Origin: Actinomyces sp. 432
Lineage (GTDB): Bacteria; Actinomycetota; Actinomycetes; Actinomycetales; Actinomycetaceae
DNA length: 64,000 bases
NCBI RefSeq assembly: GCF_009930875.1
Contig: NZ_CP025249.1
Span: forward strand, 2,232,001 to 2,296,000
Direction of reading: 5' to 3'
Part shown: piece after piece, positions 40,678 through 64,000 of the stretch
How positions within the stretch are numbered: the stretch's first letter is position 1
How the letters are laid out: every line of letters begins with the position of its first letter
Made by a program: the position numbers and the translations under genes
The notes under the pieces: model-generated
Database searches by the model: none
The model's input: only the letters and a program-made list of their open reading frames with translations
Told to the model about the DNA's origin: nothing

Positions 40678-40792
40678 TTGGGAACGCCACTTCGGCGCCT
40701 ACTACGCCCGTTGGGTGCTTGCTGAAGGCTTCCGAGCCCTTCAGCAAGCACCCAAGTGGCGTTGCCAAGCCCGAACCGGCGTAGTAAACGCC
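40678..40792. repeat. large hairpin repeat element, copy 1
   Basis: The core GGGTGCTTGCTGAAGG (40713-40728) pairs perfectly with CCTTCAGCAAGCACCC (40738-40753) around a 9-nt loop. Outside it TTGGGAACGCCACTT (40678-40692) pairs with AAGTGGCGTTGCCAA (40754-40768) at 14 of 15 positions. TACTACGCCCGTT (40700-40712) matches the inverted segment at 40774-40786 at 12 of 13. A related element lies at the right end of the window. Confidence 0.85.
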
Positions 40793-41898
40793 CATGCGCC
40801 TCGGCCACCGCCACCAGCAGCCCTAAGCCATGGCCGCCAGCACGCCGCCGGGCCTCGAACCGGAAGGGCGAGTTAATGGGCTCTTCTGGTCTAGGGGTGG
40901 GGCGGGCTAATGGTTGGCGAGCACCGGGATCGCCGTTTGTGCGCGTGCTCCGGTAGGTACGGCGCACGGCCCCGCTCCGGCGTGCACCTTCCCGCGGCGC
41001 CTGGGGTGTGGTACTCGCATGCTGTGACCTGGGTGCGCATTGGACACCTCCCCCGGTGCCTGCGATGCGGTAGCAAAATCGCTGGACTCACTGGCCGGAG
41101 CCTTCGACAGCTGCCACCGCGGTCCGGCGCCCCGGTCCGGGAACCGCACGGCCTCAACGACTCCAACGATTCGTCCACGCCGCCAACACGGCCGGACCCG
41201 TCGGCCCGAGCACAGCGTTTGCCTACTTGGACCATCTGCGCGCGCTTCTGGAGAAGTCCGGGTAGGCGCGGCCGTTCCCAGCCGGGCGCGGGCCAGCCAG
41301 CCGTACCCCGGACACCACTCCAACCTCATCCTCGGCGCGCGCACCGGAAGAGCCGAAACAGCGGCTCTTTGCGCTCAAGGCTTGGGCTGCGGCGGCCCGG
41401 CGTGAGCTCAGCCGCCGTGCGGAGGTCTACATGTCGGCCTTCTGCGGCGGTCAGTACGTGCCAGCGTGCGCGCTGATGACATGGATTGCACCACTTTGGA
41501 ACTTGCTGCCGCAGCTTCCGCCGACCGCGTCCGCGGAACCATGCGGTTTGTTAGCTCCGGAACACGGCCACTACCTGGAAAGTGGTGCATATTGTGACAG
41601 AGCGGACCCGGTAAGCGGGGAGCTGCCGCGGCAAGTCAGTCTCCGCACAGCCCTGAGGGGCCTAGGCGGCGCCTTCGTCGTCACCGCCCATGGCCTGTTC
41701 ATCTGCGGCCACGCCCGAAACCGCCTCGCGGGCCTCCTCCGCCGCCGACGCTGAGTCTCAAGAACGTCAGCCGGACCGAGGCGTCGGCGGCAACTCACCT
41801 TCCCGAACGCGATCTCGGCGACACCAAGCATCCGCGCCAGGTTCGGGCCGTACATGCCGGGCGTGCCGACCCCACGCCCGGATCACAAGAGCGCATTC

Positions 41899-42789
41899 TC
41901 AGCCGCGACGGGCAGAGCGCACCGCGATCTCCTCGCGGGCCCGCAACCCTGCAGACACCAGCCAGCGCACAGGCGCCTGCCAGGCGGCCGGGTGGCTGGC
42001 GTTCACGTAACGGCGCGCGGAGTCGTGATGCGCGCGGATCATGCGCTCGGGCCGACTCTTCCAGCTGGCGCCCTGGGAGTGGACGACTACAGCGTCGGGC
42101 ACCTGCAGGTTCAGCCAGCCGGCACGTCCCACACGCGCACCCAGATCCACATCCTCAAAGAACATGAAGTAGTCCTCATTGAAGCCGCCAAGGCGCTTCC
42201 AGGCGGCGGCGGGCAGCAGCACGCAGGCGCCGGACAGCCAGCCCACGGCGTGGGTGGCGTCCTCATTCGTGCCGTGGTACCTGGCGGAGAAGGGATTGCC
42301 CGGCCACACCCTCCCGAGGACGGCGTGTCCTGCGCCACCTACCAGCGTCGGCAGAGCGCGCCCGGACGGGTAGATGCTGCCGTCCGGGTTGAGCAGCCGC
42401 GGCCCCAGGCAGCCGGCGCGGGGCTCGGCGCGCGCGGCCTCGATCAGCGTGTCCAGGCTTCCTGGACGCCAGACGATGTCCGGGTTGGCAACAACGATCC
42501 AGTCCTCAGTCAGGTCGCGCGCGGCCAGGTTCGCCCCGCCCCCGTAGCCGCGGTTAGTGCCGTCACCGACCACACGCGCCCCGTAGCGCTCGGCGGTGCT
42601 CTCCACCCGCTCATGCTCGGTACCGTTGTCAGCGATCACGACGGCGGGGACCCGTGCGGTGGCGGCACGCAGGGACTCGAGGAAGCGTTCAAGCTCCGGG
42701 CCGGGGTTGTAGGCCACCGTGACCACGCGTACCGTTCCCAGCGGCGCCTGGGCGGACTCGCGGGACGGTTGGGACGCTACGTCAGTCAC
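41899..42789 (-). CDS. family 2 glycosyltransferase, WbbL/rhamnosyltransferase-like
   Basis: The protein has 296 aa if GTG 42789 is the start; ATG 42828 or 42873 would add an unconserved N-terminus. The GT-A motifs are VVTVAYNPGPELERFLESL, VIADNGTEHERV, GTNRGYGGGANLAAR and VVANPDIVW (acidic metal site). A later DYFMFFEDVDLGARVGRAGW is typical of rhamnosyltransferases acting on GlcNAc-PP-lipid. It is divergent from the LCP genes, consistent with wall-polymer linkage-unit synthesis, but the donor is inferred. Confidence 0.84.
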   Translation of the reverse strand: MTDVASQPSRESAQAPLGTVRVVTVAYNPGPELERFLESLRAATARVPAVVIADNGTEHERVESTAERYGARVVGDGTNRGYGGGANLAARDLTEDWIVVANPDIVWRPGSLDTLIEAARAEPRAGCLGPRLLNPDGSIYPSGRALPTLVGGAGHAVLGRVWPGNPFSARYHGTNEDATHAVGWLSGACVLLPAAAWKRLGGFNEDYFMFFEDVDLGARVGRAGWLNLQVPDAVVVHSQGASWKSRPERMIRAHHDSARRYVNASHPAAWQAPVRWLVSAGLRAREEIAVRSARRG

Positions 42790-42930
42790 GCTTGGGAGAC
42801 TACACGCGCCGGGGCCCCATGGCTGCATGCCTGGGCCGCGGGGCGTACCGTAGGGTGGAGCCATTACAGTCACCTAGGATTCCTCCTTGCTAAGGACGGA
42901 GAATCGCAGCTCCTCACAGACGGGTTCTTT

Positions 42931-44220
42931 ATGATCATGGCCGTGTCATCCCACGCCAAAGCCAAACCTCACGCGCGGCACTCAGCCAAGGACATGAGCC
43001 GGAGCGCTGCGCACAGGTTCCTGCTGGCCGGATTCGCCGTCATACTGTTCATCGTCTCCGGGGTCGGCCTGGCCTGGTATGACCTCCAGTCCCAGGTGAA
43101 CAAGCTCGGCATCGATGACTTCCTGGGCAAGGACCGCGCCCGCCAGGTAGTGGACAGCTATGAGGGGCGGTCGGTCAACATCCTCATCCTGGGAACCGAC
43201 TCCCGCGCGGGCGCCAATAACGTGGACGGCTCCGAGGGCAGTGAGGAAGTTGCGGTGGCGCGCTCGGACACCACCATGATCCTCCACCTGCCGGCGGACC
43301 GCTCCCGCATCGAAATCGTCTCAATCCCGCGTGACCTGCTGGTGGACATCCCCGCCTGCAAAACCGCCGACGGCGACACCACCGAGGCCATGACCTACAC
43401 CTCGTTCAACGCGGCCTTCGCCAATGGCGCCGGCGCCAGCGCGGATGACGCCGCCGTCGCCGCCGGCGTGGCCTGCACCGTGGCCACGGTCGAGGACCTC
43501 ACGGGGCTCTACATCGATGAGTACCTCGTTGTGGACTTCAACGGCCTGACCACCACCGTGGACGCGCTGGGCGGGGTCACCCTCTACGTGGATGAGGACA
43601 TCAATGACACCGAGTTCACCGGGCTGGTCATGAAGAGCGGCTGCCAGCATCTCGACGGCGCCACCGCGCTGCAGTACGCGCGCGTGCGCCACGGCGTGGG
43701 CGATGGCTCGGACCGCCAGCGCATCCCCCGGCAGCAGAACCTGGTGTCGGCGATGCTGCGGACCGCGAAGTCGAAGAACTACTTCACCGACGCCGACGCC
43801 CTGTACAGCTTCGCCCGCGCCGCCCTGGGCTCGCTGACCACCTCACCCGGGATCGGCTCCCTGAGCACGCTGGCCGGATTGGCCATGTCCATCAGCAACG
43901 TCGGGATGGATCAGGTGACCATCATCACCATGCCCAACGAGGAGGCGCCGTGGGATCTGAACCGCGCGCTGCCCACGGATGAGGCCGACTACGTCTGGAA
44001 GGCGATCAAGGCCGACACCCCCGTCACGGACGCCCTGCGCGAAGCAGCCGCCCAGGATGCCACCGCTGCGCCGTCGTCGGACTCGACCGAGCAGGCGCAG
44101 GCTGACGGTGATGACGCGGCACAGCCCGACGCCGCGCCGGAGCAGTCCTCAGCCCCGACGCAGGCACGTACCCCAACCGCTACCGCGACCACGCAGGACC
44201 CCGCCGCGCAGTGCCACTGA
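42931..44220 (+). CDS. LytR-CpsA-Psr (LCP) family glycopolymer transferase 1
   Basis: The protein has 429 aa from ATG 42931 (ATG 42937 also possible); the frame stays open far upstream but only this part shows LCP features. One N-terminal membrane helix (about residues 31-52). The LCP domain shows NILILGTDSRAG, VARSDTTMILHL, IEIVSIPRDLLVDI, ALQYARVRHGVGDGSDRQR. The conserved Arg and Asp residues that bind the pyrophosphate-lipid are present. The C-terminus is a low-complexity Ala/Ser/Thr/Gln tail. LCP enzymes move glycopolymers from lipid carrier to peptidoglycan or surface protein. Tandem with a second LCP gene 64 bp away. Confidence 0.9.
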   Translation: MIMAVSSHAKAKPHARHSAKDMSRSAAHRFLLAGFAVILFIVSGVGLAWYDLQSQVNKLGIDDFLGKDRARQVVDSYEGRSVNILILGTDSRAGANNVDGSEGSEEVAVARSDTTMILHLPADRSRIEIVSIPRDLLVDIPACKTADGDTTEAMTYTSFNAAFANGAGASADDAAVAAGVACTVATVEDLTGLYIDEYLVVDFNGLTTTVDALGGVTLYVDEDINDTEFTGLVMKSGCQHLDGATALQYARVRHGVGDGSDRQRIPRQQNLVSAMLRTAKSKNYFTDADALYSFARAALGSLTTSPGIGSLSTLAGLAMSISNVGMDQVTIITMPNEEAPWDLNRALPTDEADYVWKAIKADTPVTDALREAAAQDATAAPSSDSTEQAQADGDDAAQPDAAPEQSSAPTQARTPTATATTQDPAAQCH

Positions 44221-44283
44221 ACACCCACTGACACCCGCCGACGACGTGCCGACCGAGCCGCAGGAATAGGAGTCCAAGCAGCA

Positions 44284-45771
44284 GTGAGCAGCACAGACGA
44301 CGACCTCCCCCCGGCATTCAGCCCCGGAGACGACGGGTCTCGGCGTCGCCCCGGCACCGAGAGAACCCCTGCGCGCCGCTCAGAGCGTACCGGTCCCGGC
44401 TCCCCCAGCGGCACGCGCTCCACGGGCAGCGCAGGTGACGGCAGTGGCGTACGCAGTGGCGCGGCACCGCGCCGCCCACGCCCCCAGAAGGCCGACTCAT
44501 CGGGCCAAGCCGACCCAGCCTCCCCTCCTCGCGGACACCACCACGCCGACGGGGCCACAGCCCGCCCCGGAGCAAACCCGAGTACTCCCAAGCGGGTCCC
44601 CGTAAGGAGCCGGGCGCGCTCCGGATCCTCCGCTGTGCCACTGCGGTCGGCCCCCGCGGCTGCAGACGGCCGCGCGTCCACCAGGGTCATGCCCGCCGGC
44701 ACCGCGCCCTCCGCGCGCAGCCGTAACGTCTCCCCGGCTCTTGCCCCGGCGCGCTCATCCCGGTACGCCCCCTCATCGACCCTGAACCAGCACACCCAGC
44801 CGGCTCCGCCGCGGCCCCCCGCGCGCAAACGGCACCGACCCCTGCGATGGCTGGCCATCACGCTGGTCATCCTGCTGGCGCTAGTCGGGGCCCGCGCAGC
44901 CTGGCTCATACACGACGTCAATTCCAAGCTCTCACGCGTCCAGGCTCTGTCCGGCGTGCAGGCCACACCCGGGGAGACCTGGCTGATCGTCGGCTCGGAC
45001 TCGCGGGCCGACGGCGCCGTAGTGGACAACACCGACGGCGCCCGCTCCGACTCGATCATGCTGCTGCACCGAGCCCCCGGCGGGCAGAGCTCCCTGATCT
45101 CCCTGCCGCGCGACACCTACGTGGAGATACCCGGTTACGGAGGCAACAAGATCAACGCCGCCTACGCCTACGGCGGCCCCACCCTCCTGGTCGCAACGGT
45201 TGAGCAGCTGACTGGGCTGACTGTTGACCACTACGTTGAGGTCGGCATGGGCGGAGTGTCCTCCCTGGTGGACGCCGTAGGCGGCATCAACGTCTGCCTG
45301 GACTACGACGTCGATGACGCGGACTCCGGGCTCGTGTGGGACACTGCCCAGGGCGAGTGCCAGGACGTCGACGGCGCCAAGGCGCTCGCCTACTCCCGCA
45401 TGCGGAAATCCGATCCGGCCGGCGATATCGGACGCGCCCTGCGGCAGCGGGCGGTCATCTCCGCCGTCGTCTCCCGCGCTGTCTCACCCACCACACTGCT
45501 GAGCTTCACCCGGCAGGACGCCCTCGTAAACGCGGGCACCAAGGCGCTGACGGTTGACGAGGACACCTCGGTACTCGATCTTGGCAAGATGCTGCTGGCC
45601 TTCCGCTCCGCCTCGAACGCCGGCCTGACTGGCGCGCCGCCCATCGCCAGCGTGGACTACGAGCCCGGCGGCATCGGCGCGGCCGTGCTGCTACAGGACA
45701 CCACTGCCCCGGACTTCTTCGCCAAGCTCCGCGCAGGCACGCTGACTGCCGCTGACTTCGACCAGCCCTGA
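44284..45771 (+). CDS. LytR-CpsA-Psr (LCP) family glycopolymer transferase 2
   Basis: The protein has 495 aa from GTG 44284. It has a very long cytoplasmic N-terminus (about 180 residues rich in Pro, Arg, Ser and Ala) before one membrane helix (LAITLVILLALVGARAAWLI). The LCP domain follows: WLIVGSDSRADGAV, ARSDSIMLLHRA, SLISLPRDTYVEI, LAYSRMRKSDPAGDIGRALR. The disordered cytoplasmic part differs from its partner and may be a regulatory target. Same role as LCP 1, perhaps with a different polymer. A strong hairpin follows the stop. Confidence 0.9.
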   Translation: MSSTDDDLPPAFSPGDDGSRRRPGTERTPARRSERTGPGSPSGTRSTGSAGDGSGVRSGAAPRRPRPQKADSSGQADPASPPRGHHHADGATARPGANPSTPKRVPVRSRARSGSSAVPLRSAPAAADGRASTRVMPAGTAPSARSRNVSPALAPARSSRYAPSSTLNQHTQPAPPRPPARKRHRPLRWLAITLVILLALVGARAAWLIHDVNSKLSRVQALSGVQATPGETWLIVGSDSRADGAVVDNTDGARSDSIMLLHRAPGGQSSLISLPRDTYVEIPGYGGNKINAAYAYGGPTLLVATVEQLTGLTVDHYVEVGMGGVSSLVDAVGGINVCLDYDVDDADSGLVWDTAQGECQDVDGAKALAYSRMRKSDPAGDIGRALRQRAVISAVVSRAVSPTTLLSFTRQDALVNAGTKALTVDEDTSVLDLGKMLLAFRSASNAGLTGAPPIASVDYEPGGIGAAVLLQDTTAPDFFAKLRAGTLTAADFDQP

Positions 45772-45801
45772 GCCGTCCGCTCCGGAGCTGCCTGGCAAGC
45801 G

Positions 45802-45844
45802 GCGGGCACCGCCGTGGCCGGGGATACCCGTCGGCGGTGCCCGC
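45802..45844. terminator. bidirectional terminator between LCP 2 and galE
   Basis: GCGGGCACCGCCG (45802-45814) and CGGCGGTGCCCGC (45832-45844) pair perfectly over 13 bp with a 17-nt loop, between convergent genes. A second small hairpin (GCACCG/CGGTGC, 45846-45862) follows. No T-run, usual for high-GC actinobacteria. Confidence 0.75.
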
Positions 45845-45868
45845 GTGCACCGGGGACCGGTGCGGTGT

Positions 45869-46870
45869 TCAGCCGAAGTGAGGCCGGTCCGGATCGGCCT
45901 GCCAAGCGGAGAAGGACGATGCGACGATGTCGTCCAGGTCGTGCTCGGCCTCCCAGCCGAGTACCTCGCGGATACGCGAGGCGTCGCCAATCAGCTGCGG
46001 CGGATCGCCGGCACGGCGGTCCAGCTCCTCCGGCCGCACTTCACGGCCGGTGACGGCAACGACCGCGTCAATCACCTTGGAGACCACCTCGCGCACCGAG
46101 GACCCCTGCCCCGTGCCGACGTTGAACACGTGCTCGCGCATCTCCTCCTCGCCGGCCAGGTGGTCCAGCGCCGCGATGTGGGCGCTGGCCAGGTCGCGCA
46201 CGTGGATGTAGTCGCGGATGCAAGTGCCGTCCGCAGTGGGGTAGTCGGTGCCGAAGATCTTCGGGGACTCGCCACGGGCCAGACGATCGAGCACCATGGG
46301 GATGAGGTTGAGGGTGGCCATGTCACCCAGGTCGTCCCAGCCCGCGCCGGCTACGTTGAAGTAGCGCAATCCCGCCCAGCGCAGCCCCCAGGCACGCTCG
46401 CAGTCGGCCATCATCCACTCGCCAATGAGCTTCGTCTCCCCGTAGGGGTTGATGGGACGGCAATCGATGTCCTCGGGCACAACCTCCACGGGCGGCATGC
46501 CGTACACCGCTGCGGAGGAGGAGAAGATCATCCGCTCTACGCGGGCCTGCTCCATGGCCAGCAGCATGTTGGCCAGGCCGCCCACATTCTGCTGGTAGTA
46601 CCAGGCGGGTCGGGCAACGGACTCGCCCACCTGCTTGCGGGCGGCGAAGTGGATGACCGCCTTGACGTCCTTACGGTCCATCAGGTCCGCCAGGGCCTCG
46701 ATGGCGTTGCCGGCGGCGACGTCGAGCTCAACCAGCTCGGCGTCTCCTACACGCCCGGGGGTTCCGTAGGACAGGTCATCAACGACGACGACCTCATCTC
46801 CACGCTCTTGCAGCAGACGAACAACATGGGCACCGATATATCCGGCACCACCCGCAACGAGGATGCTCAT
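45869..46870 (-). CDS. galE: UDP-glucose 4-epimerase
   Basis: The protein has 333 aa from ATG 46870. Extended SDR: NAD motif GGAGYIG at 7-13, HFAARKQVGESV, SSSAAVYGMPP, catalytic NPYGETK (Tyr and Lys), LRYFNVAGA and DGTCIRDYIHVRDLA, all GalE hallmarks. It interconverts UDP-glucose and UDP-galactose, supplying galactose for the glycans built nearby. It converges on the LCP genes and lies 105 bp after purE. Confidence 0.95.
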   Translation of the reverse strand: MSILVAGGAGYIGAHVVRLLQERGDEVVVVDDLSYGTPGRVGDAELVELDVAAGNAIEALADLMDRKDVKAVIHFAARKQVGESVARPAWYYQQNVGGLANMLLAMEQARVERMIFSSSAAVYGMPPVEVVPEDIDCRPINPYGETKLIGEWMMADCERAWGLRWAGLRYFNVAGAGWDDLGDMATLNLIPMVLDRLARGESPKIFGTDYPTADGTCIRDYIHVRDLASAHIAALDHLAGEEEMREHVFNVGTGQGSSVREVVSKVIDAVVAVTGREVRPEELDRRAGDPPQLIGDASRIREVLGWEAEHDLDDIVASSFSAWQADPDRPHFG

Positions 46871-46975
46871 GGGGCGATGCTACCGGTGGCGGCATCGCTC
46901 CGTATATGCCCAAGGTCCAACTCGCCGGGCCGTGCGGCGTCGGCCCAGCGGGCTGACGCCAGGCGGTGACGGGCC

Positions 46976-47509
46976 TCAGTCCCGCCCAGCGACCTCGCGG
47001 CGCAAAGCTGCTCCCTTGGCGTGCGCAGTATCGGCGAGCTCGGCCTGGAATGCGCGCATGGCGGCGCGTAGGCAGGCAGCCTCCGCCCCCTCCCCCGCGC
47101 CCAGGATGCGTGCGGCTAGCAGGCCCGCGTTGCGAGCGCCGCCAATGGATACCGTGGCGACCGGTACACCGGCGGGCATCTGGACGATCGACAGCAGCGA
47201 GTCCATACCGTCCAGGTACTTCAGCGGCACCGGCACGCCGATCACGGGCAGCTCGGTGACGGCCGCGAGCATTCCGGGCAGGTGGGCGGCGCCCCCAGCC
47301 CCGGCGATGATGACCCGCAGGCCCCGCCCGGCGGCGTCGCGCCCGTAGGCGAGCATCTCGTCCGGCATGCGGTGGGCGGATACGACGTCGGCCTCGTAGG
47401 GGATTTCCAGCGCGTCGAGGGACTCGGCGGCCGCCCGCATGGTGGGCCAGTCGGAGTCCGACCCCATGACGATGCCGACGACTGGTTGCTGGTCCTGCTG
47501 CTGGGTCAT
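46976..47509 (-). CDS. purE: N5-carboxyaminoimidazole ribonucleotide mutase
   Basis: The protein has 177 aa from ATG 47509. [14 protein letters not shown] near residue 10, [13 protein letters not shown] near 41, and [14 protein letters not shown] match class I PurE. It converts N5-CAIR to CAIR in purine synthesis, directly after PurK, whose gene lies 121 bp upstream on the same strand. Length is normal. Confidence 0.95.
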
Positions 47510-47630
47510 GGGGCTGCTCCTACATTGAATCCGCCGCTTGCTGCGTCGTCCGCCCACGCCAGCCGCGGCGCGGTGCGGGACGGACTCGTCAAGCCTATGA
47601 CGTGCCGCGTGACCGCCCCAAGGATTCGGC

Positions 47631-48884
47631 TCAGGCCTCTGCGCGCAGGATCGCGACGACGGCGCGGGCCCGCTCGCGCACGGCGGCGATTTCCGCAGCG
47701 CCCGTGGCCGTGGTGGTCATATTGACGTGTCCGAGCTTGCGGCCGGGACGCCACTGCTTGCCGTAAAGGTGCAGGTGGGCCTCGGGCTCGCGTGCCAGAG
47801 CACGGGCGAGGGCATCGGCGGGCATCTGCTGCTCCCCGCCCAGGAAGTTGACCATCACGGTGGTGGGGGCCGTCGGCGTCGTCGCTCCCAGCGGCAGGTC
47901 GAGGACGGCGCGCATGTGCTGGGCGAACTGGCTGGTCACCGCGCCCTCCTGGGTCCAGTGGCCGGAATTGTGGGGGCGCATGGCCAGCTCGTTTACGTAC
48001 AGGCGGGTGCCCTGCGGGCCCTCGACGGCGAACAGCTCAACGGCGAGCACCCCGGTGACATCCGCACGCTCGGCAATGGTGCGGCCGATGTGCTCCGCCT
48101 GCCCGACGGCAGCGGGCTCCAGCCCGGGGGCCGGGGCCACCGTCTCAACGCAGATGCCGCCGGACTGCACTGATTCGATCACCGGCCAGACGGCGACCTG
48201 GCCGGAGGGACGTCGTGCCAGCAGAACCGCTAGTTCACGGGTGAAGGGAACCGCCTCCTCCACCAGCAGGCTGGTCACGGCGCCTCCGCCCAGGCTGCCA
48301 CCACCGCCAGTACCGGCCGCCGCCCGCCCGGCGCGAGCATCGGCAGTGGACTCCAGCCATGCCGCAGCCTCACCCTGGTCCAGCTCAACCGCGGATCGCA
48401 CCATGAGCACCCCGTGCCCGTCATAGCCGCCGCGGGGCGTCTTCAGCACTACTGGCCAGCCGTGCGCGGCAGCGAAGTCAGCCACCTGCTCCCGCATCTG
48501 CTCGGTAGTCCCGGCCACTTCCGCCCAGGCCGGCTGCGGCAGCCCAGCAGCATCGACGGCACGGCGCATGGCGAGCTTGTCGCGGGCCAGGAGCAGCGCC
48601 TCGGGCGCCGGCCGCACCGCCACCCCCTCCGCCTGCAGGTGGGACAGCAGCGCAGGATCCTGGTGCTCGTGCTCAAAGGTGAGTGCATCCGCGCCCGCGA
48701 CCAGGGCACGTACGGCGTCGGCGTCGTCGGCACGGCCAACCGGGGAATCGACCGTCACCTGCGCAGCAGAGCCGTCCGCGGACTCGACGAGGGTGCGCAG
48801 ATGAATACCCAGCGCGGAAGCCTCCTCCTGCATCATGCGGGCCAGTTGGCCGCCTCCGATAACGGCAAGAACGGGGGTGCTCAC
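47631..48884 (-). CDS. purK: N5-carboxyaminoimidazole ribonucleotide synthase
   Basis: The protein has 417 aa from GTG 48884. ATP-grasp enzyme: [19 protein letters not shown] at the N-terminus, [29 protein letters not shown] (ATP-binding), [19 protein letters not shown] with PHNSGHWT. It makes N5-CAIR from AIR, ATP and bicarbonate, paired with PurE. A Gly-rich insertion ([11 protein letters not shown]) sits in the middle. Divergent from the PIG-V-like gene. Confidence 0.94.
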
Positions 48885-48931
48885 GGCTCCACCCTAGTGG
48901 CGGTCCCGGCTCGGCCCCGTACGCTGGCGCC

Positions 48932-50206: not shown

Positions 50207-50219
50207 GATCGTAGTCGTG

Positions 50220-50828
50220 ATGAAAGCGATATCTGAGACGGGGTCCGCCAACCCGCCTGTTTTCACCGAGGCCCCCGGCGCACTCACGTCCTACCAGCCT
50301 GAGCCGGGCACGCCGCCCCCCGCGCAGGCGGCACCGGGTGAAGAGGTCACTCGCGCCTACCGCCCCCACGCCCGGGTCTGCGTCATCGACCGCCTACTGG
50401 CGTGGCTGCGGGAGCTGACCCAGTTCGGCCTGGTTGGGGCGCTGGCATTCATCATCGACTCCGGCATGTTCAACCTGCTCCAGCACGGCCCCACGGGGGT
50501 GCTCGCCGGGCATCCGAACACGGCCAACCTGGTCTCCGCCGCAGTGGCGACGGTTTTCTCCTGGGTGGCCAACCGCAGCTGGACCTACCGCGGCCGCACG
50601 CGCGAGAGCATGGCCCGGGAAGCGGCCCTGTTCGCCTTCGCCAACGCCGGCGGCATCCTGATCACCCAGTTCTGCCTGCTGTTCACCCACCATATCCTGG
50701 AGCTGACCGGCCCCCTGGCGGACAACGTCTCCGCCTACGTAGTCGGCTTCGCCCTGGGAACAGCTTTCCGCTTCTTCTTCTACCACTACGTCGTCTTCAC
50801 CGGCGATGGCGACGCCGCACCCAACTGA
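50220..50828 (+). CDS. GtrA-family membrane protein
   Basis: The protein has 202 aa from ATG 50220. A disordered Pro-rich N-terminus of about 60 residues precedes four helices. GtrA marks: [57 protein letters not shown]. GtrA proteins are suggested to move or regulate polyprenyl-phosphate sugars. Adjacent to the PIG-V-like gene, it could present the lipid-linked donor to it. Confidence 0.85.
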
Positions 50829-53318: not shown

Positions 53319-53357
53319 GGCACCTGCCTTCTTCGGTGGCCTGGCTCAGGCGTGGGC

Positions 53358-54026: not shown

Positions 54027-54089
54027 GCCCTGGATCGTATGCGACCAGGGCGGGAGGCGTCATCCTCCGCTGGCAGGAAGTGTCGCGCC

Positions 54090-55211: not shown

Positions 55212-55379
55212 CGCGTAAGAGTAGCGCACATCACAGGCCGGTGATCAATAGGTGAATCAATCAGGGCGGTCACAAGGCCGACCAGCACTCATCCCAGCTG
55301 CCGCCGTATGCGTAGTGCCGCCGCTCGTACCGATACTGCGCAGCGGCACCGCCCACCCGCGCGCTGGCCGCGCCGCACG

Positions 55380-56291: not shown

Positions 56292-56384
56292 GCCAGCAGC
56301 CTACGCGACCGCCGAGAACAGTCGAGGCGACGAAGCCCGGCTCCGGCGTGGGCTTGCGGGAGACCGGGCACTAGGCTTGAGCGC

Positions 56385-57062
56385 GTGCTTGTCCTGGCAT
56401 CCCAGTCCACCGGCCGTCTGGCCACCCTGCGGGCAGCCGGCGTCGATCCGCAGGTACGGGTCTCCGACGTCGATGAGCCCCGAGTCCTGGCCGACCTAGC
56501 CGCCGCGCGCCGCGCCGGCGGCTCACCGGCTCCCACACCCGCAGAGCAGGTGCAGGCTCTGGCGCAGGCCAAGGCACTTGACGTGGCGGGCAGCCTCCCG
56601 GACGCGGCGGCACAGGCGGACCCGGACCTGGTGGTAGTCGGCTGTGACTCCATGCTGGAGATCGACGGGAACGTGGTTGGCAAGCCGGGCACCGCGCAGT
56701 TGGCCCGCGAGCGCTGGCGGGCGATGCGGGGGCGCAGCGGCACCCTGCACACCGGGCACTTCCTGGTGCGCGCCCGCGACGCCGCTACCGCCGCCGGCGT
56801 GTCATCCACGATCGTGCACTTCGGCTCCCCCAGCGACGCCGAGATCGACGCCTACGTAGCCTCCGGGGAGCCCCTGTGGTGCGCAGGCGCGTTCACCATC
56901 GACGGCCTGGGCGGCGCCTTCATCGACGGCGTTGAGGGGGATCCGCACGGGGTGGTCGGCATCTCCCTGCCACTGCTGCGCCGCCTGCTGGCTCACCTGG
57001 GGGTGACCTGGACGGACCTTTGGTCCCCACCCAGCGCCGCACCCGGCTCAGCGGCGCAATAG
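56385..57062 (+). CDS. maf: Maf/YhdE nucleoside triphosphate pyrophosphatase
   Basis: The protein has 225 aa from GTG 56385. LVLASQSTGRLATLRAAGV (the ASxSxxR motif), VVVGCDSMLEIDGNVVGKPG, and RGRSGTLHTGHFLVR match Maf proteins, which hydrolyse (d)NTPs to NMP and limit misincorporation. Its stop overlaps the convergent MaoC-like gene by 15 bp. Usual length is 190-210, so it carries small insertions. Confidence 0.92.
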   Translation: MLVLASQSTGRLATLRAAGVDPQVRVSDVDEPRVLADLAAARRAGGSPAPTPAEQVQALAQAKALDVAGSLPDAAAQADPDLVVVGCDSMLEIDGNVVGKPGTAQLARERWRAMRGRSGTLHTGHFLVRARDAATAAGVSSTIVHFGSPSDAEIDAYVASGEPLWCAGAFTIDGLGGAFIDGVEGDPHGVVGISLPLLRRLLAHLGVTWTDLWSPPSAAPGSAAQ

Positions 57063-57830
57063 GGCGCTGTGCCCGCCGGTACTGATACCGCCCCCGGCGT
57101 CGACGTGCAGCGCGACAGAGCCGCCTGCCGGCAGCGGCACGGCCCCGGTGAACCGCAGGTCCACCGTCCCGGAAGCCGGCGCTAGCGCGAGGCTGATGGC
57201 ACCCAGCAGCAGTCCATGGGCGACTACGTCCCCCTCCCCTACGGGCAGTCCTGCCCGCCGCGCCGCGCCGGCACGCAGGTGGATGGGATTGTGGTCACCG
57301 GTCGCCCGGGACCAGTCGCGCACGTGGGCGGCGGTGAGAACGAGCTCACGGACCGGCTCCGCCCCCGACGCCGGAACTGGTCCGCCCGGTGCCGGTGCCG
57401 CAGCCGCCGCGCGGCGGGCGAGGTCGTGAGCGACCCGGGCACCGGTCGCCCACCCCGGGCCGGCGGGGCACACGAGCACGGTGCTGTGCACCAGCTCCCA
57501 GCCGCCGCGGACGGTGCGGTCCATGGTGGGCTCGAGGTCGCGGGAGGCTGGTCTTCCGCGGGCGTCGGCGGGTACGACGTCGGCCGGGGTGATCCGGCAG
57601 CGTCGGTGGATGAATCCGGTCAGGTCCCTGCCACCGGTGCCGTCGGCGGCGTTGCCCGTGTACCGCGGGAGCCGGTCGGCTAATCCGGCCAGTGCCACGA
57701 CGGCGGGGGCGAGCACGAGCGCAGCAGGCGCCAGGGCCGGGCCGCAGTCCGCTCCGCTCGTGTCCGGGGCAACCGGTTCCCTGTGGGTGGAAGGCAGGCG
57801 GGCGAGAACTGCGGCGAGGACTTGCGCCAT
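57048..57830 (-). CDS. MaoC-like hotdog dehydratase
   Basis: The protein has 260 aa if ATG 57830 is used; GTG 57932 would add a low-complexity leader. The C-terminal hotdog domain has DWSRATGDHNPIHLRAGAAR with the catalytic Asp and His, and VVAHGLLLGAISLAL. The N-terminal part (LPSTHREPVAPDTSGAD through MDRTVRGGWELVHSTVLVC) resembles the non-catalytic hotdog half. Such fused proteins act as (R)-specific enoyl hydratases/3-hydroxyacyl dehydratases. Position directly after rpmG is common in actinobacteria. Start is uncertain. Confidence 0.75.
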   Translation of the reverse strand: MAQVLAAVLARLPSTHREPVAPDTSGADCGPALAPAALVLAPAVVALAGLADRLPRYTGNAADGTGGRDLTGFIHRRCRITPADVVPADARGRPASRDLEPTMDRTVRGGWELVHSTVLVCPAGPGWATGARVAHDLARRAAAAAPAPGGPVPASGAEPVRELVLTAAHVRDWSRATGDHNPIHLRAGAARRAGLPVGEGDVVAHGLLLGAISLALAPASGTVDLRFTGAVPLPAGGSVALHVDAGGGISTGGHSALLRR

Positions 57831-57934
57831 GTCTGCGGCAAGTGTGTCCGGGACTGCCGTTGCTGCGGGGGTATGGCAAGGCCCCGGCGATCCTGGATCG
57901 TCGGGGCCTGCATCCGCGTCGCGCACCGCCACGG

Positions 57935-58102
57935 TCAGCGGGTCTCGCGGTGCTCCGTGTGCTTGCCGCAGCGCCGGCAGTACTTGGACAGAGACAACCG
58001 GTCCGGAGTGTTCCGGCGGTTCTTCTTGGTGATGTAGTTGCGCTCCTTGCACTCCGAGCACGCCAGAGTGATCTTGGGGCGAACGTCGCTGGCCTTGGCC
58101 AC
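57935..58102 (-). CDS. rpmG: 50S ribosomal protein L33
   Basis: The protein has 55 aa from GTG 58102, with an AGGAGAAGGA box just before it; the longer ATG reading is rejected. [19 protein letters not shown] and [15 protein letters not shown] show the CxxC...CxxC zinc-binding form. Part of the large ribosomal subunit. It lies 58 bp after tRNA-Met on the same strand. Confidence 0.95.
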
Positions 58103-58160
58103 GTCCTTCTCCTCTCGCTGATCCTCGAGCAGCCCGTTGGGTGCCATGCTCGAACTTGCG

Positions 58161-58234
58161 TAGCGGGGGAGGGACTCGAACCCTCGACCTCACGATTATG
58201 AGTCGTGCGCTCTAACCAGCTGAGCTACCTCGCC
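58161..58234 (-). tRNA. tRNA-Met (CAT)
   Basis: Cloverleaf with D-arm AGCTCAGCTGGTTAGAGC, anticodon loop CTCATAA (CAT) on stem ACGA/TCGT, T-arm GAGGG/CCCTC around TTCGAGT. One acceptor pair (position 5, A against C) is mismatched. No encoded CCA. Elongator-type rather than initiator cannot be proven here, but the G1-T end pair and standard D-arm favour elongator. Confidence 0.93.
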
Positions 58235-58274
58235 AGATGACACTTCAGGGGCCCGTAGGCCCCCGCAGCATCAG

Positions 58275-58347
58275 AGCCCCGAAAGGGAATCGAACCCTTG
58301 ACCTTCTCCTTACCATGGAGACGCTCTGCCGACTGAGCTATCGGGGC
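58275..58347 (-). tRNA. tRNA-Thr (GGT)
   Basis: Acceptor GCCCCGA/TCGGGGC is perfect. Anticodon stem TCTCC/GGAGA with loop ATGGTAA gives anticodon GGT. T-arm AAGGG/CCCTT. No encoded CCA. Confidence 0.96.
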
Positions 58348-58468
58348 AACGAGCGGAACTTTAGGCAGATCGGATTTGCCTGCGCAACTCCGTTTCCCGT
58401 GGCCTCGCTCACCGCGGTCCCGCCCCTGGGGGCGAGTTCTGGCCGCGGCGTAAACGCCGCAACCATGG

Positions 58469-58550
58469 TGGCGGGTGAGGGATTCGAACCCCCGTAGCAT
58501 ACTGCGGCTGATTTACAGTCAGCTCCCATTGGCCGCTCGGGCAACCCGCC
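58469..58550 (-). tRNA. tRNA-Tyr (GTA)
   Basis: Acceptor GGCGGGT/ACCCGCC is perfect. Anticodon stem around CTGTAAA gives GTA, and the long variable arm (GCAGTATGCTAC region) marks a class II tRNA. First of three minus-strand tRNAs leading into rpmG. Confidence 0.96.
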
Positions 58551-58724
58551 GGGCTCCGTGCTCGCCGCGGGCCGGTCTTGCCGCCCCACGCCTCTGCTCG
58601 GTGCCGTGGAAGGATAGCAAGCCAACGGCTGCGCACGCCAATCCCCACCGTAGGACCCTGCTCACAGCGATGACGGCGCCACGTCCGGCTCCGCAATCAC
58701 CGAGCTCCTTCTACAGTCGTTGTC

Positions 58725-59462
58725 ATGTCGCAACCTAGGCCCCCTTACCGTCCCGATCAGCGACCCGCACCCCAGGCGCAGCCCATGGCTACGCAGACGC
58801 CAGGCGTCCCGATGCCGATGCAACCCGGACAGCCTCAGCACAAGCGTCGTAGTCCCCTAGTCCTCGTCATTGCTGTGGTGGCCGCCATAGCGGTCGCCGC
58901 CGGCATCGGCATCGGCATCATCGTCAGCGTGGCATCGCACGGCCGGCCCGTCCCGGCAGCACAGGCCACCGCCGGACAGTGCATCGAGGACCCGGAGGTG
59001 AAGGAGCTGGGCCACGTCTACGTCGCTGACTGCGACTCTGCGGATGGCGCCTACAGGGTCACCGCCGCTGCCGGTACCGACTGCACGACCGTGCCAGGAA
59101 CAACCACCACTTACCAGGATCTATGCATGATCGGCCTTGGCGAGGACCCGAGCGCTTCCTTGATCGAGGTTCAGGAGGGCGACTGCCTGAGTATTGACGA
59201 CGCCACGCAGGAGGCCGCCGTTGCAGAGTGCACCAGCGGCACCTACCCGGCGCTGAAGGTACTTACCGACGTTGCCGACTCAGATCTCGGGCTGATGGCG
59301 GGCGACGAGGACGCCTGCATCGCCGCGGGCGTGGATGAGGATGCTTACTCCTTCTGGTACAAGTGGAACCTGACCTCCTTCATGTTCGACACGGCAGGCG
59401 ACACGAGGAATCTGCTCAGCCCCAACCAGTTCGTCTTCTGCCTGGGCGATCCCCAGCCGTGA
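58725..59462 (+). CDS. single-pass membrane protein, function unknown
   Basis: The protein has 245 aa from ATG 58725. A Pro/Gln-rich cytoplasmic part (about 1-40) precedes one helix (LVLVIAVVAAIAVAAGIGIG) and an outer domain. That domain has two repeats of a GxCL/GQCIE start and a DC/ECxS turn (AGQCIEDPEV...VADCDSADG; EGDCLSIDD...VAECTSGTY), suggesting two small disulphide-stabilised modules. This layout resembles Streptomyces LppU-like proteins of unknown function. No enzymatic motif seen. Confidence 0.8.
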   Translation: MSQPRPPYRPDQRPAPQAQPMATQTPGVPMPMQPGQPQHKRRSPLVLVIAVVAAIAVAAGIGIGIIVSVASHGRPVPAAQATAGQCIEDPEVKELGHVYVADCDSADGAYRVTAAAGTDCTTVPGTTTTYQDLCMIGLGEDPSASLIEVQEGDCLSIDDATQEAAVAECTSGTYPALKVLTDVADSDLGLMAGDEDACIAAGVDEDAYSFWYKWNLTSFMFDTAGDTRNLLSPNQFVFCLGDPQP

Positions 59463-59495
59463 CCCGTCATCCCTGACCGGAGGGTGGCAGCCGTC

Positions 59496-60359
59496 TCAGT
59501 AGCCCGCCATCTGCTCCAGGCGGGCGATGCGCTGGGCCATCGGCGGGTGGGTGGCGAACAGGCTCCGCACCCCGCCGAAGGGGTTGGCGATCATCATGGC
59601 GCTGACCGGCTCCAGGCGCGGGTCCTGCCGCATGGGTGCGGCGGCCACGCCTGTCTCCAGCTTGTGCAGTGCGCTGGCCAGGGCCAGCGGGTCGTGAGTC
59701 AGGACGGCGCCGTCGTGGTCGGCGTCGTACTCGCGGGTACGGGAGACGGCGAACTGGGTGAGGCTGGCCGCCAGCGGAGCCAGCAGCGCCAGCAGGAGCA
59801 GAACCAGGGCGTTGGAGTCGCGCCGGTCCCGGCCCCCGCCGAACCACATGATGCCGGTGGCGATCGAGGAGATCACCCCGGCGATGCCCGCGGCTACGGA
59901 GCCGGTGAGGATGTCCCGGTTGTAGACGTGGGACAGCTCGTGGCCGAGTACCCCGCGCAGCTCCCGCTGGTTGAGCAGCTGGAGGATGCCCTGGGTGCAG
60001 CACACGGCGGCGTGCTGCGGGTCGCGGCCGGTGGCGAAGGCGTTCGGACTCATGGTGGGGGCCACGTACAGCCGCGGCATCGGCTGCCCGGCGGCAGTGG
60101 ACAGCTCGCGCACAACCGCGTACATGACCGGCTGCTGCACCTCGCTGACCTCGACGGCGCCCATGGAGCGCACCGCGAGCTTGTCGGAGTTCCAGTAGGC
60201 GTAGGCCGTCTGCGCCACCCCGATCGCGGGCATGAGCAGCAGCCACACGCTTGAGCCGGTTCCGCGCGCAAGCAGCCAGCCGAGCAGGAGCAGCAGGCCC
60301 CACAGTCCCCCCATGAGGACGGCGGTCTTGAGTCCGTTGTGGTGGTTCGTGCCCGTCAT
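59496..60359 (-). CDS. htpX: M48-family zinc metalloprotease HtpX
   Basis: The protein has 287 aa from ATG 60359. Four membrane segments; zinc motif HELSH at 140-144 in LRGVLGHELSHVYNRDIL, third ligand Glu in SRTREYDADHDGA. PRLYVAPTMSPNAFATGR is the family segment before the active site. It degrades misfolded membrane proteins from the cytoplasmic side. Stands alone. Confidence 0.95.
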   Translation of the reverse strand: MTGTNHHNGLKTAVLMGGLWGLLLLLGWLLARGTGSSVWLLLMPAIGVAQTAYAYWNSDKLAVRSMGAVEVSEVQQPVMYAVVRELSTAAGQPMPRLYVAPTMSPNAFATGRDPQHAAVCCTQGILQLLNQRELRGVLGHELSHVYNRDILTGSVAAGIAGVISSIATGIMWFGGGRDRRDSNALVLLLLALLAPLAASLTQFAVSRTREYDADHDGAVLTHDPLALASALHKLETGVAAAPMRQDPRLEPVSAMMIANPFGGVRSLFATHPPMAQRIARLEQMAGY

Positions 60360-60410
60360 AGCGCGAGTGTATGAACGCTCGCTGTGCTGTTCCTGGGAGT
60401 GGTGGCCGGC

Positions 60411-61526
60411 TCAGGCCAGCAGGGCGGCGACGTCGGCGACGTCGAGTCCCAGGGCCTGCCCGACGCCGGCCGTGTACAGGGCGCCGCCATGGGTGGCCAG
60501 GCCGCGGGCGAGGTCGGCCCGCTGGCGGCAGGCCTCGTGCCAGCCGCTATCGGCCAGGGCGACGGCGTAGGGCAGGGTCGCGTTGGTCAGCGCGTAGGTG
60601 GACGTGTAGGACACGGCCCCGGGCATATTGCCCACGGCGTAGAAGATCTTGCCGTCCACCTCGTAAGTGGGCTCGGAGTGCGTGGTCACGTGGGAGTCCT
60701 CGAAGCAGCCGCCCTGGTCGATGGCGATGTCCACGAGTACGGAGCCCGGGCGCATCGCCTCGACCATCTCGTGGGTCACCAGCCGGGGCGTGCGGGCGCC
60801 GGGTACGAGCACGGCGCCGATGACAAGATCGGCGGCGGCGACGGCTCCGGCCACGTCCAGCGGGGTGGAGAAGCGGGTGCGGACCGTCCCGCCGGTCAGC
60901 TCATCGATCTGGCGCATACGGACCGGGTTGATGTCCATGACGGTGACGTCCGCACCCATGCCCGCGGCCACGCGGGCGGCGGCCAGGCCGGCGGTGCCGC
61001 CGCCAAGCACGACGACGTTGGCGCGGCGCACTCCCGCGGCACCGCCCAGCAGCACGCCGGAGCCTCCGTTTGGTGCGAGCAGGGCGTCGGCCCCCACCTG
61101 CACGCCGAGCCTTCCAGCGATCTCGGACATGGGAGCGAGCAGCGGCAGGCCGCCGTCGTCGGTGGCGACCGTCTCATAGGCGACCGCCGTGACGCCCCGG
61201 TCCATCAGGGCCTCAGTCAGGGCGCGGTCGGCGGCCAGGTGCAGGTAGGTGAACAGCAGCAGGCCCTCACGCAGGTAGCCGAACTCGGAGGGCACCGGTT
61301 CCTTGACCTTGAGGACCATCTCGGCCCCGCCCCACACCGCAGCGGCATCGGCGGCGATGGTCGCGCCGGCGTCCACGTAGTCGGCGTCGGCAATGCCGGC
61401 ACCCAGTCCCGCCCCCGCCTGCACGGTCACCTCGTGCCCGTGCCGCACGAGCGTGTCCACGCCGGCCGGCGTGAGCGCTACGCGGTATTCGTGATCCTTT
61501 ACCTCGGTGGGTACGCCGATACGCAT
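60411..61526 (-). CDS. ald: alanine dehydrogenase
   Basis: The protein has 371 aa from ATG 61526. MRIGVPTEVKDHEYRVALTP opens the domain; catalytic Lys75 (LKVKEP) and His96 (FTYLHLAAD) are at the standard positions. The NAD site is VVVLGGGTAGLAAARVAAGM. C-terminus has GNMPGAVSYTSTYALTNATL. It interconverts L-alanine and pyruvate with NAD. Neighbouring gene is the ferredoxin reductase, on the same strand 73 bp upstream. Confidence 0.96.
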   Translation of the reverse strand: MRIGVPTEVKDHEYRVALTPAGVDTLVRHGHEVTVQAGAGLGAGIADADYVDAGATIAADAAAVWGGAEMVLKVKEPVPSEFGYLREGLLLFTYLHLAADRALTEALMDRGVTAVAYETVATDDGGLPLLAPMSEIAGRLGVQVGADALLAPNGGSGVLLGGAAGVRRANVVVLGGGTAGLAAARVAAGMGADVTVMDINPVRMRQIDELTGGTVRTRFSTPLDVAGAVAAADLVIGAVLVPGARTPRLVTHEMVEAMRPGSVLVDIAIDQGGCFEDSHVTTHSEPTYEVDGKIFYAVGNMPGAVSYTSTYALTNATLPYAVALADSGWHEACRQRADLARGLATHGGALYTAGVGQALGLDVADVAALLA

Positions 61527-61599
61527 GGGGCTACCTTTCGCTGCTTGGAGTCCGGGCACTGTGCTCCGGGTGCCTCAGCCTACCGCCCCGACCGGACCG

Positions 61600-63086
61600 T
61601 CAGTCCTGCAGGCGGTGTGCAACTCGCTCGGGCACGCGATCGGGATCCGGCTGGCCGATGAGGTCGGCGGGGGCCTCGGTGCTGCGGGAGATCGCGGTCA
61701 TCGCTTCACGGGCAACAACCTTGACGCGCTCGCGCGACTTGGCGTCACCGCCGGTGACCGTGACCTCACCGTAGGCCTCGCCCAGCTCGCGCTCGTAGGC
61801 GTCCAGCAGCTCCCAACCCTCCCAGGTGGTGTAGGGCACGCCGCGGGAGTCGAGCAGCGCCAGCAGGGCGTCGTGGCCGACCTGGGAGGCGTCGTCGGTG
61901 GTGGCGTGCAGCAGGCCGGCGTTGGCATCGGCAACCAGGTTCGTAATTGTCTCCTGGGCGTCGGACTTGGTGGAGCCGATCAGGCCGACCGGGCCGCGGC
62001 GGATCCAGCCGGTGGCGTAGATGCCGGTCAGCGGCTGGCCATCATCGTCGAGCACGCGGCCGCCGGCGTTGGGGATCACATGCCGGTCGGCGTCGAAGGG
62101 CAGGCCCTCAATGGGACTGCCTGCGTAGCCAACGGCGCGGTAGACGGCCTGCACCGGCCAGTCCCGGAACTCGCCGGTGCCGGAGACGGTGCCGTCACCG
62201 TTCAGGCGAGTGCGCTCGGTGCGCAGGGCGCGCACGTGCCCGGCCTCATCGGTGAGAATGGCGGCGGGCGCCTGGAACAGGTGGATGTGGATGGTCCGGG
62301 AGGCGGTCAGCTCCTCCGGCTCCTGCATGGCGTAGTTCTCCAGGGCCTTGACCACCTGCCGCTGCTGGTTGGAGGCGGCCAGGGCCTCGCGGGAGCCCTC
62401 GTCGTACTCGAAGTCCTCCTCATCGACGGTGACGTCCACATCGGGCTGCTTGCCCAGTTCCCGCAGCTCCAGGGGGTGAACTTCACCTGGGCGGGGCCGC
62501 GGCGACCGAAGACGTGCACGTCGGTGACCGGGGACTGCTGCAGTAACTCGGCCACGTTCGCGGGGATCTCCGTGGTCATCAGGTCGCGGGCGTGCTTGGC
62601 CAGGACGCGGGAGATGTCCAGGGCGACGTTGCCGACGCCGATGACGGCAACCTCCTTGGCCTCCAGCGGCCAGGTGCGCGGATGGTCGGGGTGACCGTCG
62701 TACCAGGAGACGAAGTCGGCGCCGCCGTAGGACTCGGGAGCGTCGATACCGGGGATGTCCAGGGGGGCGTCGGTATCCGCGCCGGTGGAGAAGATCAGGG
62801 CGTCGTAGTGCTCGCGCAGCTCGGCGACGCTGATGTCGCGGCCGACCTCCACGTTGCCGATCAGCCGGATGTCGCCGCGCTGCAGGATCTTGTACAGGGC
62901 CACGATGATCTGCTTGATGCGCGGGTGGTCCGGGGCCACGCCGTAACGCACCAGGCCGTAGGGGGCAGGCAGGCGCTCGAACAGGTCGATGTTCACGTCC
63001 AGGCCCGACTTCGACAGGATGTCCGAGGCGTAGATACCGGCGGGGCCTGCTCCGATGACGGCGACATTAAGAGGGCGTGCGTTCAC
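61600..63086 (-). pseudogene. ferredoxin/flavodoxin-NADP+ reductase (FprA-like), one-base frameshift
   Basis: GTG 63086 gives LNVAVIGAGPAGIYASDIL, the FAD-binding motif, then LFERLPAPYGLVRYGVAPDH. EVAVIGVGNVALDISRVL is the NADP site and IYATGWIRRGPVGLIGSTKSD the C-terminal adrenodoxin-reductase-type signature. The frame breaks at the G5 run at 62472-62476; one more base restores VKFTPLELRELGKQPDVDV and a 495-aa protein. It passes electrons between NADPH and ferredoxin. Essential-type function, so the shift is probably a sequence error. Confidence 0.9.
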
Positions 63087-63623
63087 TGGTCTTCGTTTCT
63101 GGTGACTAAGGGTGGATGGCCGGGCGAGCACCGGGCGGTGCGCTGCTCAGGTCGGCCCAAGTGTATGCGGGTGCTCATCAACCGCGGTGTGGCGTGCGTC
63201 CCGCTCACCCGACTGGCTTCCGCCGCCCCTCGCCGAGGTCGGTAGACGTTACGTGCCGAGGTCGGCAGAAGTGGCGAATCCCATTCCCGCTGACCTCCTC
63301 GTTCTTGTCGCCCGTCCGGAAGCATGCAGACGCAGCACTGCGCGGCTCAAACCACGACGATTCGTGCACATGGCGACGGATCTGCGATTCGCCGGGTGAC
63401 GTGACTCCTCCGGTTCGCGGGTGTGGAGGTGGATTCCGGGGTGATCTCGGGCGCTTAGGCCGAGGGGTCGGCTGGATGCGACTCTCTGCTGGCACCGAGT
63501 CCCGTGCGTGGCGGCCCGAAGTGTCCAGATCTATGACAAACGAGGTAGGAGGCGGCAGCGGCCGCGAACAGAACGTTGGAATCATGCGGGTGTCAGATCG
63601 GCACCAGCGGCCGTAGGCGGTGT

Positions 63624-63642
63624 TTGTCATCAATTTTGACAA
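63624..63642. promoter_or_regulatory. small palindrome, operator-like
   Basis: TTGTCA (63624-63629) and TGACAA (63637-63642) flank seven T/A-rich bases. ATGACAAAC at 63533-63541 is the exact reverse complement of GTTTGTCAT at 63622-63630. Could be a regulator site or part of a longer repeat; no gene nearby in the window to assign it to. Confidence 0.35.
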
Positions 63643-63914
63643 CCATAGGAGCATCATTCCGCCCCCGCGGCGGGCACCCGGCACACACCCACCAGGCCGA
63701 CAGCACCCACCAGCCACACCTCAAACCTGACAAGTCCGTTTGAGGGCGTACGCATCGCTGGTCATGCAGTACCGGATACCGGCCACTGACAATGCCGTGC
63801 CCAGCACCTCCCACGCCTGGAGTCGGCTGCACGCACCCCCGTACCCAAGTCGGCTGCAAGCACCCCCGGAGTCGTTTGCCGGTATCCCCCGCCCGGAAGC
63901 GGGATCATCTACAA

Positions 63915-63999
63915 CGCCACTTCGAGGTTAACAACGCCCGTTAACGGTCTGCTGAAGGGCTGCAAGGTATACAGCAGGCCGTTAAGTAGCGTTGTTAAC
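63915..63999. repeat. large palindrome, copy 2 of hairpin repeat family
   Basis: Two 28-nt arms (63927-63954 and 63972-63999) pair at 24 of 28 positions around a 17-nt loop, both ending in GTTAAC/CAGCAG. Conserved blocks shared in order with the 40.68-kb element: AACGCCACTTCG, ACGCCCGTT, TGCTGAAGG, then AAGTRGCGTTG. The outer end may continue past 64000. Confidence 0.82.
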
Positions 64000-64000
64000 G

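Follow-up and report, generated by a model that had tools for sequence, protein, structure and literature searches.

The 64,000-nucleotide stretch of DNA examined here (the window, bases 2232001-2296000 of the 3,141,809-base genome of Actinomyces sp. 432, labelled G000) carries two copies of a long hairpin repeat that belongs to a family dispersed over this genome and found elsewhere in the genus. We think it probable, at roughly 57%, that the family consists of dispersed intergenic DNA palindromes resembling large repetitive extragenic palindromic (REP) sequences or miniature inverted-repeat transposable elements (MITEs), spread in part within ISL3-type elements and with some homogenisation between copies. 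Our literature searches, whose coverage left out most subscription journals, returned no description of this hairpin family, which is apparently undescribed. Its 'accordion' design is unusual, since the hairpins are long, their arms change mostly by 20 bp, and pairing is kept despite extensive sequence change across the genus. Below, labels of the form G0xx designate the Actinomyces genomes compared and L labels the loci fetched.

Each of the two window elements is a dyad of about 115 bp, corresponding to columns 1-115 of a gapless 119-column family alignment (A1). This alignment holds 52 of the 82 unique copies, near-duplicates, half copies and copies of other length having been left out by eye. 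Copy 1, a divergent B-type, occupies 40676-40794 in A1, and its dyad lies at 40676..40790 on the plus strand, as judged by alignment, arm complementarity and folding. It contains a perfect 16-bp inner stem, GGGTGCTTGCTGAAGG / CCTTCAGCAAGCACCC, within 55-nt arms that are 73% complementary; by alignment and pairing analysis, the two arms of the inner stem common to the family lie on the plus strand at 40711..40724 (A1 columns 36-49) and 40742..40755 (columns 67-80). Copy 2, an A-type, starts at 63906 and in A1 extends beyond the window, as far as what would be window position 64024. Its visible part (63906..64000, plus strand) is cut by the window end, its dyad extending to genome position 2296020 with the final 20 bp outside the window. 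The part inside the window has 28-nt arms with 86% complementarity, and the same analyses place its inner stem arms on the plus strand at 63941..63954 and 63972..63985. The original prediction, based on these two elements, was of a new hairpin family in which ordered blocks are common to both copies and the stems differ in sequence yet stay paired. The blocks are indeed present in both copies, and alignment and arm complementarity bear out the different but paired stems.

Both elements fold strongly. Compared with dinucleotide shuffles, DNA folding gave z scores of -9.1 for copy 1 and -4.5 for copy 2, RNA folding of the plus strand gave -7.5 and -5.4, and RNA folding of the minus strand gave -9.1 and -4.9, none of 200 shuffles being as good in any of these comparisons. 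Along the arms, alignment reveals regularly placed short cores. In copy 1, the outer-left unit core ACGCCACTT lies at 40684..40692 and the middle-left core 20 bp beyond it at 40704..40712, both on the plus strand, while the right-arm cores are on the minus strand at 40754..40762 (middle-right, reading AAGTGGCGT on the plus strand) and, 20 bp beyond, at 40774..40782 (outer-right). Copy 2 has its outer-left core, again ACGCCACTT, at 63914..63922 and its middle-left core 20 bp further on at 63934..63942, both on the plus strand.

A blastn search of the genome with copy 1 gave 79 matches, some of the weakest being short and unrelated; since the element almost equals its reverse complement, both strands are hit. 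At least 35 copies exist in this genome, namely 34 resolved places and one partial match at about 947478 that came from a further search. The 12-mer AACGCCACTTCG occurs 14 times in the genome and its reversed control not at all. In A1, the arms are built from 20-bp units with the core ACGCYnnTT, normally two units per arm, and this core is invariant or nearly so at all four unit positions. Among the 34 own-genome copies, taken with 150-bp flanks, the distance between neighbouring cores on the same strand was exactly 20 bp in 59 of 60 cases, which are not independent since the copies share descent. Left arms carried two cores in 30 copies and three in four, and right arms one core in 14, two in 18 and three in two. 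The first 40 kb of the window contained five cores, none within 40 bp of another. Where units extend beyond the aligned part, they hold the 20-bp phase and occur on one arm only. A-type copies have the central hairpin CTGCTGAAGG...CAGCAG. By eye, the element ends in A1 are mostly CGTCTRC / GYAGACG; many rows start with CGTC or variants such as CCTC, and in many copies the terminal CGTC pairs with GACG. In G005, Tandem Repeats Finder reported 20-nt arrays of up to 6.9 copies. The same genome also holds a higher-order tandem array (L103, 7001-8143) with a period of 325 bp and 3.5 copies, inside which lie four hairpins.

The family is intergenic, in line with the proposal that the two window elements lie in gene-free DNA. 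We called genes of at least 80 aa with our own simple codon-usage caller and compared them with 36 model matches, two weak ones included, at 33 loci of this genome; no overlap was seen. The genes around these 36 matches were convergent in 11 cases, tandem in 13, divergent in six and undecided in six. The orientation of the hairpins relative to the genes is not fixed, and both orientations and all three arrangements occur.

A covariance model built from A1 found the family in 15 of 49 Actinomyces genomes, our own included (E<=0.001). Match counts, which include both strands, reached at least 74 in three genomes, and four genomes (G009, G017, G018 and G021) had a single site giving two matches. 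G015, G022 and G060 keep the architecture with other stems and another loop, the loop differing from subfamily to subfamily. In the seven genomes with changed stems, match lengths clustered at 79, 97-98 and 115-119 nt, with some at 99-112 and one at 137. The family has further copies and conserved pairing, and the outcome that would have spoken against it, a lack of both, did not occur. The exact A-type pattern, searched in 84,980 species, gave 23 stretches, located in Actinomyces glycerinitolerans, A. ruminis, A. succiniciruminis and A. ruminicola; records very near our genome may be excluded from this search. Among 198 genomes of the order, a set with stricter filters and 18 candidates scored per genome that included our own genome and at least five congeners, three outside the genus had one match each (E 1e-7 to 1e-6). 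These single palindromic matches (L236, L237 and L238) come from three other families of the order, and a similar core is repeated in them at 20, 20 and 19 nt, respectively, with GCGCC in place of ACGCC in L236; the repeat of L237 is a 20-nt array. No match was obtained in 50,697 phage records or 72,556 plasmid records, and two patterns had no exact match in viral contigs. A third pattern hit one viral contig at a 20-nt tandem array (L239, 6090-6220) whose unit has the core AAGTGGCGT and which lies about 700 bp from a gene resembling an integrase by eye. We judged this array compatible with chance.

We then analysed the pairing in A1. For the nested structure, 78.1% of cells pair, and both the covariation score (0.159) and the number of double-changed cells (111) were above all 500 shuffles. 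A crossing scheme, in which outer-left pairs with middle-right and middle-left with outer-right, gave 83.6% paired cells, a score of 0.167 and 18 both-side-changed pairs vs 13.6 in shuffles. Crossing pairing is at least as good as nested pairing, as would be expected of units that are all alike. The least ambiguous evidence of covariation lies in the inner stem, mostly outside the unit cores, where compensatory pairs among the 52 copies include columns 39-77 (AU in 26, GC in 18), columns 40-76 (CG in 34, GC in 8) and columns 44-72 (CG in 27, UA in 10). Pairing was also followed between orthologous copies, orthology being assigned by flank alignment and one pair being taken from each of nine of the 12 ortholog groups; mid and serC, which are not independent of pcnA, and one group of unequal length were left out. 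Stem changes in the nine pairs amounted to 17 single changes that kept pairing, five double changes that kept it, and 22 broken pairs, against 14.9, 1.6 and 38.5 expected when the same changes were randomly reassigned to stem columns. For the doubles P was 0.0145, and none of the 2000 simulations gave as few breaks. Breaks between orthologs are common, and the changes fall partly on columns that were already unpaired. Having fewer broken and more double-kept pairs than random placement indicates that pairing is conserved at these loci. Pairing is thus kept across subfamilies and partly between orthologous copies.

Both window copies are absent from the aligned sites of relatives. Copy 1 lies in a stretch of about 1.9 kb (39988..41897) that does not align in relatives; the flanks of this stretch are 22 bp apart in G030, 53 in G005, 338 in G012, 855 in G014 and, in G009, which is more distant, 165. 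The gap at the copy 2 locus measures 248 bp in G030, where another hairpin follows past the next gene, 76 bp in G005, and 1216 bp in G014, the last with an ISL3-ended element and no hairpin. At a site orthologous to copy 2 (L157, 1529-2441), a 913-bp ISL3-ended element without hairpin has GCGTTTCC on each side. Other loci hold several hairpins at conserved orthologous positions. G000 has four copies at the serC-pcnA locus. Among themselves they show 93-99% identity, and with A-type copies from G014, G030 and G012 they show 88-93%, whether or not these are orthologous. The three copies that G005 has there all belong to the other subfamily, with 63-69% identity to A-type copies, while the adjoining alignments outside the hairpins are at about 77-95%. 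Such a pattern fits conversion between copies in some lineages, though not in all relatives.

Part of the family is associated with ISL3-type elements. ISL3-family elements end in the motif GGCTCTTCnnGTTTGnGGGTGTGG: it brackets PF01610 transposases, and identical 8-bp flanks were seen on 16 distinct copies among the ISL3 elements fetched, 11 of them in G005 and one (L124) enclosing a third end. Of 90 distinct hairpins (three near locus ends dropped, orthologous copies counted apart), 32 had an ISL3-like end no more than 150 bp away. The same held for 39 of 545 control positions lying outside called genes and, over all positions, for 42 of 2665; a first count in which some loci entered twice gave 34 of 104 hairpins and 30 of 1636 controls. 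By motif match, the window holds an end-like sequence upstream of copy 1 (40212..40235, plus strand, no mismatches), a second one downstream of it in the same direction (40879..40902, three mismatches) and one upstream of copy 2 (63403..63426, plus strand, three mismatches). In G030, a 1266-bp ISL3-ended element (L109) has two hairpins inside and a perfect 8-bp duplication, AGCATCAC, on both sides. Five shorter elements likewise enclose a hairpin within ISL3-like ends: those in L006, its ortholog L096 and L075 measure exactly 276 bp, that in L109 272 bp and that in L114 270 bp. Ends near or around this subset suggest that a minority of copies travel, or once travelled, inside ISL3-type elements. 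At four loci (L010, L105, L108 and L134), an ISL3-like end touches the hairpin edge, and in L134 an intact ISL3 insertion with the duplication AGTAAAGG at the edge makes the hairpin a target rather than cargo. We rejected general targeting of hairpins by ISL3 elements, as one of the 16 insertions with perfect duplications has an adjoining hairpin (one of 11 in G005), a count in which the model may miss the hairpin types of G015.

Taken together, these results show that every element consists of 20-bp units, as a rule two in each arm, arrayed in inverted orientation about a central hairpin. Arm length varies mostly in 20-nt steps, and we propose that arms grow and shrink via slippage or unequal exchange at the hairpin. 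Copies would be dispersed partly by riding ISL3-type elements when a transposase is present, and conversion between copies would homogenise some of them. The retention of pairing may reflect copying of the folded or cruciform form, or else repair of one arm on the template of the other. The family offers a natural series in which to study long palindromes: how a bacterial genome tolerates them, copies them and homogenises them.

Several observations weigh against this proposal. In the nested structure, neither both-side-changed pairs (20 vs 22.4 in shuffles) nor further pair types (53 vs 55.3) exceeded the shuffled values. The original prediction saw selection on structure in the paired but divergent stems; this is plausible, but conversion toward the family consensus would yield a similar pairing pattern and could supply part of the signal. 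The hairpins at conserved orthologous positions point to old, mostly static copies. As to homogenisation, three G012 copies at serC-pcnA are 91-96% identical to one another and no closer than to the G014 and G030 copies (92-94%), orthologs of the close pair G014/G030 are 96-100% identical, and one G030 copy is divergent. For a hairpin on its own, the fetched loci showed neither a clean insertion boundary nor a target duplication. A search for empty sites gave 13 candidate pairs, several being the same site, and no clean empty site; in the best case (G012 vs G014, 194 vs 56 bp), a boundary or duplication was not readable. In addition, the 270-276-bp elements lack a target duplication (1-4 of 8 bases match), our own genome has no PF01610 match, and a hairpin adjoins only one of the 16 distinct ISL3 insertions with perfect 8-bp duplications.

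The ISL3 association could be carried further: all hairpins would then be interior segments of ISL3-family MITEs, whether intact or decayed, and ISL3 transposases would have moved them all. The 270-276-bp elements with ISL3-like ends, the 1266-bp element with its perfect target duplication and the frequency of ends near hairpins, about five times that of controls outside called genes, all argue for it. The subset near or between such ends does resemble ISL3 MITEs, its ends matching autonomous ISL3 elements of related genomes. However, for 58 of the 90 distinct hairpins the 150 bp on either side lack such an end, and the modular anatomy is different. PF01610 is present in G005, G009 and G030, but neither G014 nor G012 (82% complete) has a match, although both have dozens of hairpins. 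Moreover, the end touches the hairpin edge at the four loci cited above, in one of which the hairpin is the target. Hence the family is only partly an ISL3 MITE, and we regard the full form of this explanation as unlikely.

Two further readings concern a protein that would recognise the units. One speculative and rather improbable scenario is that an as yet undescribed system of mobilisation or recombination in actinobacteria recognises the 20-bp-phased ACGCYnnTT arrays, with whole-unit arm changes and active copy exchange; L236-L238 would then be outlying members. If a dedicated protein does recognise the units, this would point to a new mobilisation system. In a related explanation, which we find quite doubtful, the phased cores would be putative sites for a DNA-binding protein and the pairing a by-product of their inverted arrangement, with possible roles in chromosome organisation, recombination or a transposition complex. 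The near-invariant core at all four unit positions, the rigid 20-bp phase, the extra units confined to one arm and the crossing pairings that fit at least as well as nested ones are consistent with such an array. Nevertheless, the clearest compensatory changes lie in the inner stem, mostly outside the cores, and a candidate protein was not identified.

A structured RNA, with the hairpin transcribed as a regulator, processing site or terminator, seems very unlikely to us. Strong folding on both strands, inner-stem covariation, fewer broken pairs than expected between orthologs and the many copies in convergent gaps (11 of 36 matches) could agree with it, and its positive evidence is limited to folding and pairing. 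Against it stand the occurrence of all three gene arrangements and both orientations, the unequal unit number of the two arms and the loop that differs among subfamilies. In addition, Rfam gave no match at gathering score over a hairpin in the window (three tRNAs), in 18 own-genome loci (one tRNA and three below-gathering matches, of which only MIR839, with 25.8 of 200 bits, lay over a hairpin) or in ten relative loci (64 matches, none reaching gathering and almost all of them to microRNA models).

The dispersed palindromes can be compared with the known repeats that they resemble. The Actinomyces hairpins share with REP elements their dispersed, intergenic and palindromic nature and their many copies per genome, and many A1 rows begin with CGTC, as CGTC-tagged REPs do. 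REPs are palindromes of 20-40 bp carrying an unpaired GTAG or CGTC tag, the CGTC families having 8-9-bp stems, and CGTC-tagged REPs, which are from other phyla, apparently lack a dedicated transposase (PMC3733652). Terms with actino-, coryne-, mycobact-, streptomyces or bifido- did not turn up in a term search of that article (PMC3733652). In contrast, the Actinomyces matches measure 79-137 nt (115-bp dyads), with stems of tens of pairs made from 20-bp units, and the terminal CGTC is paired with GACG in many copies whereas the REP tag is unpaired. By size and stem, the family is therefore set apart from the published REP families, as far as their description in this source goes. The original prediction also proposed a REP-associated tyrosine transposase (RAYT)-like enzyme. 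A Y1_Tnp match was found in none of the 49 Actinomyces genomes, while the positive control matched in five of 14 known genomes, and we rejected REPs with a RAYT. This test is relevant to GTAG-type REPs and is not defining for CGTC REPs, given their apparent lack of a dedicated transposase (PMC3733652). The suggested REP/MITE-like character thus holds for the intergenic position, the copy number, the absence of the window copies in relatives and the ISL3-like ends of a subset, but not for the link to RAYT. The family adds an actinobacterial case of REP-like repeats without RAYT.

Some hairpins flank accessory genes, sometimes in the same orientation on both sides, which together with their long imperfect form recalls attC sites. 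These sites are long imperfect hairpins with the end boxes RYYYAAC / GTTRRRY. The Actinomyces ends are different (by eye in A1, the attC boxes are absent from them), the copies are scattered over the chromosome and cassette exchange was not demonstrated. We set aside integron-like cassettes, which are also weakened by the positional conservation of hairpins and a DUF559-type gene at serC-pcnA; an apparent gene replacement in G012 came from the gene caller choosing another frame. In six genomes, hairpins flank the DUF559-type gene (a weak match in L097) or a relative of it recognised through alignment or by eye (L097, L098, L107, L150, L151 and L221). The L097 protein has what we take to be an AbiEi-like start. 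In G005, another gene also lies between the hairpins that flank the DUF559-type gene. A gene pair encoding an AAA_21 ATPase (putative AbiEii type in Pfam) and a DUF4276 protein lies between two hairpins in G014 (L110, 6135-7984). In G005, a pair with similar protein starts is likewise found between hairpins (L106, 8490-10338), the Pfam assignment having been made on L110 only. No such pair was called in the syntenic loci of G000 and G030.

Finally, other repeats accompany the window copies. Just upstream of copy 1, positions 40375-40601 hold imperfect tandem arrays of 20-21-nt units with the core ACGACCTC, a region that has dispersed matches in relatives too. Another dispersed repeat of about 240 bp (41393-41632) has one match each in G012, G014 and G030 at 77-78%. 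Two more lie near copy 2, one of about 200 bp (63490-63730) and one of about 50 bp (63223-63276), the latter reaching 94-95% identity in G005, G012 and G014.

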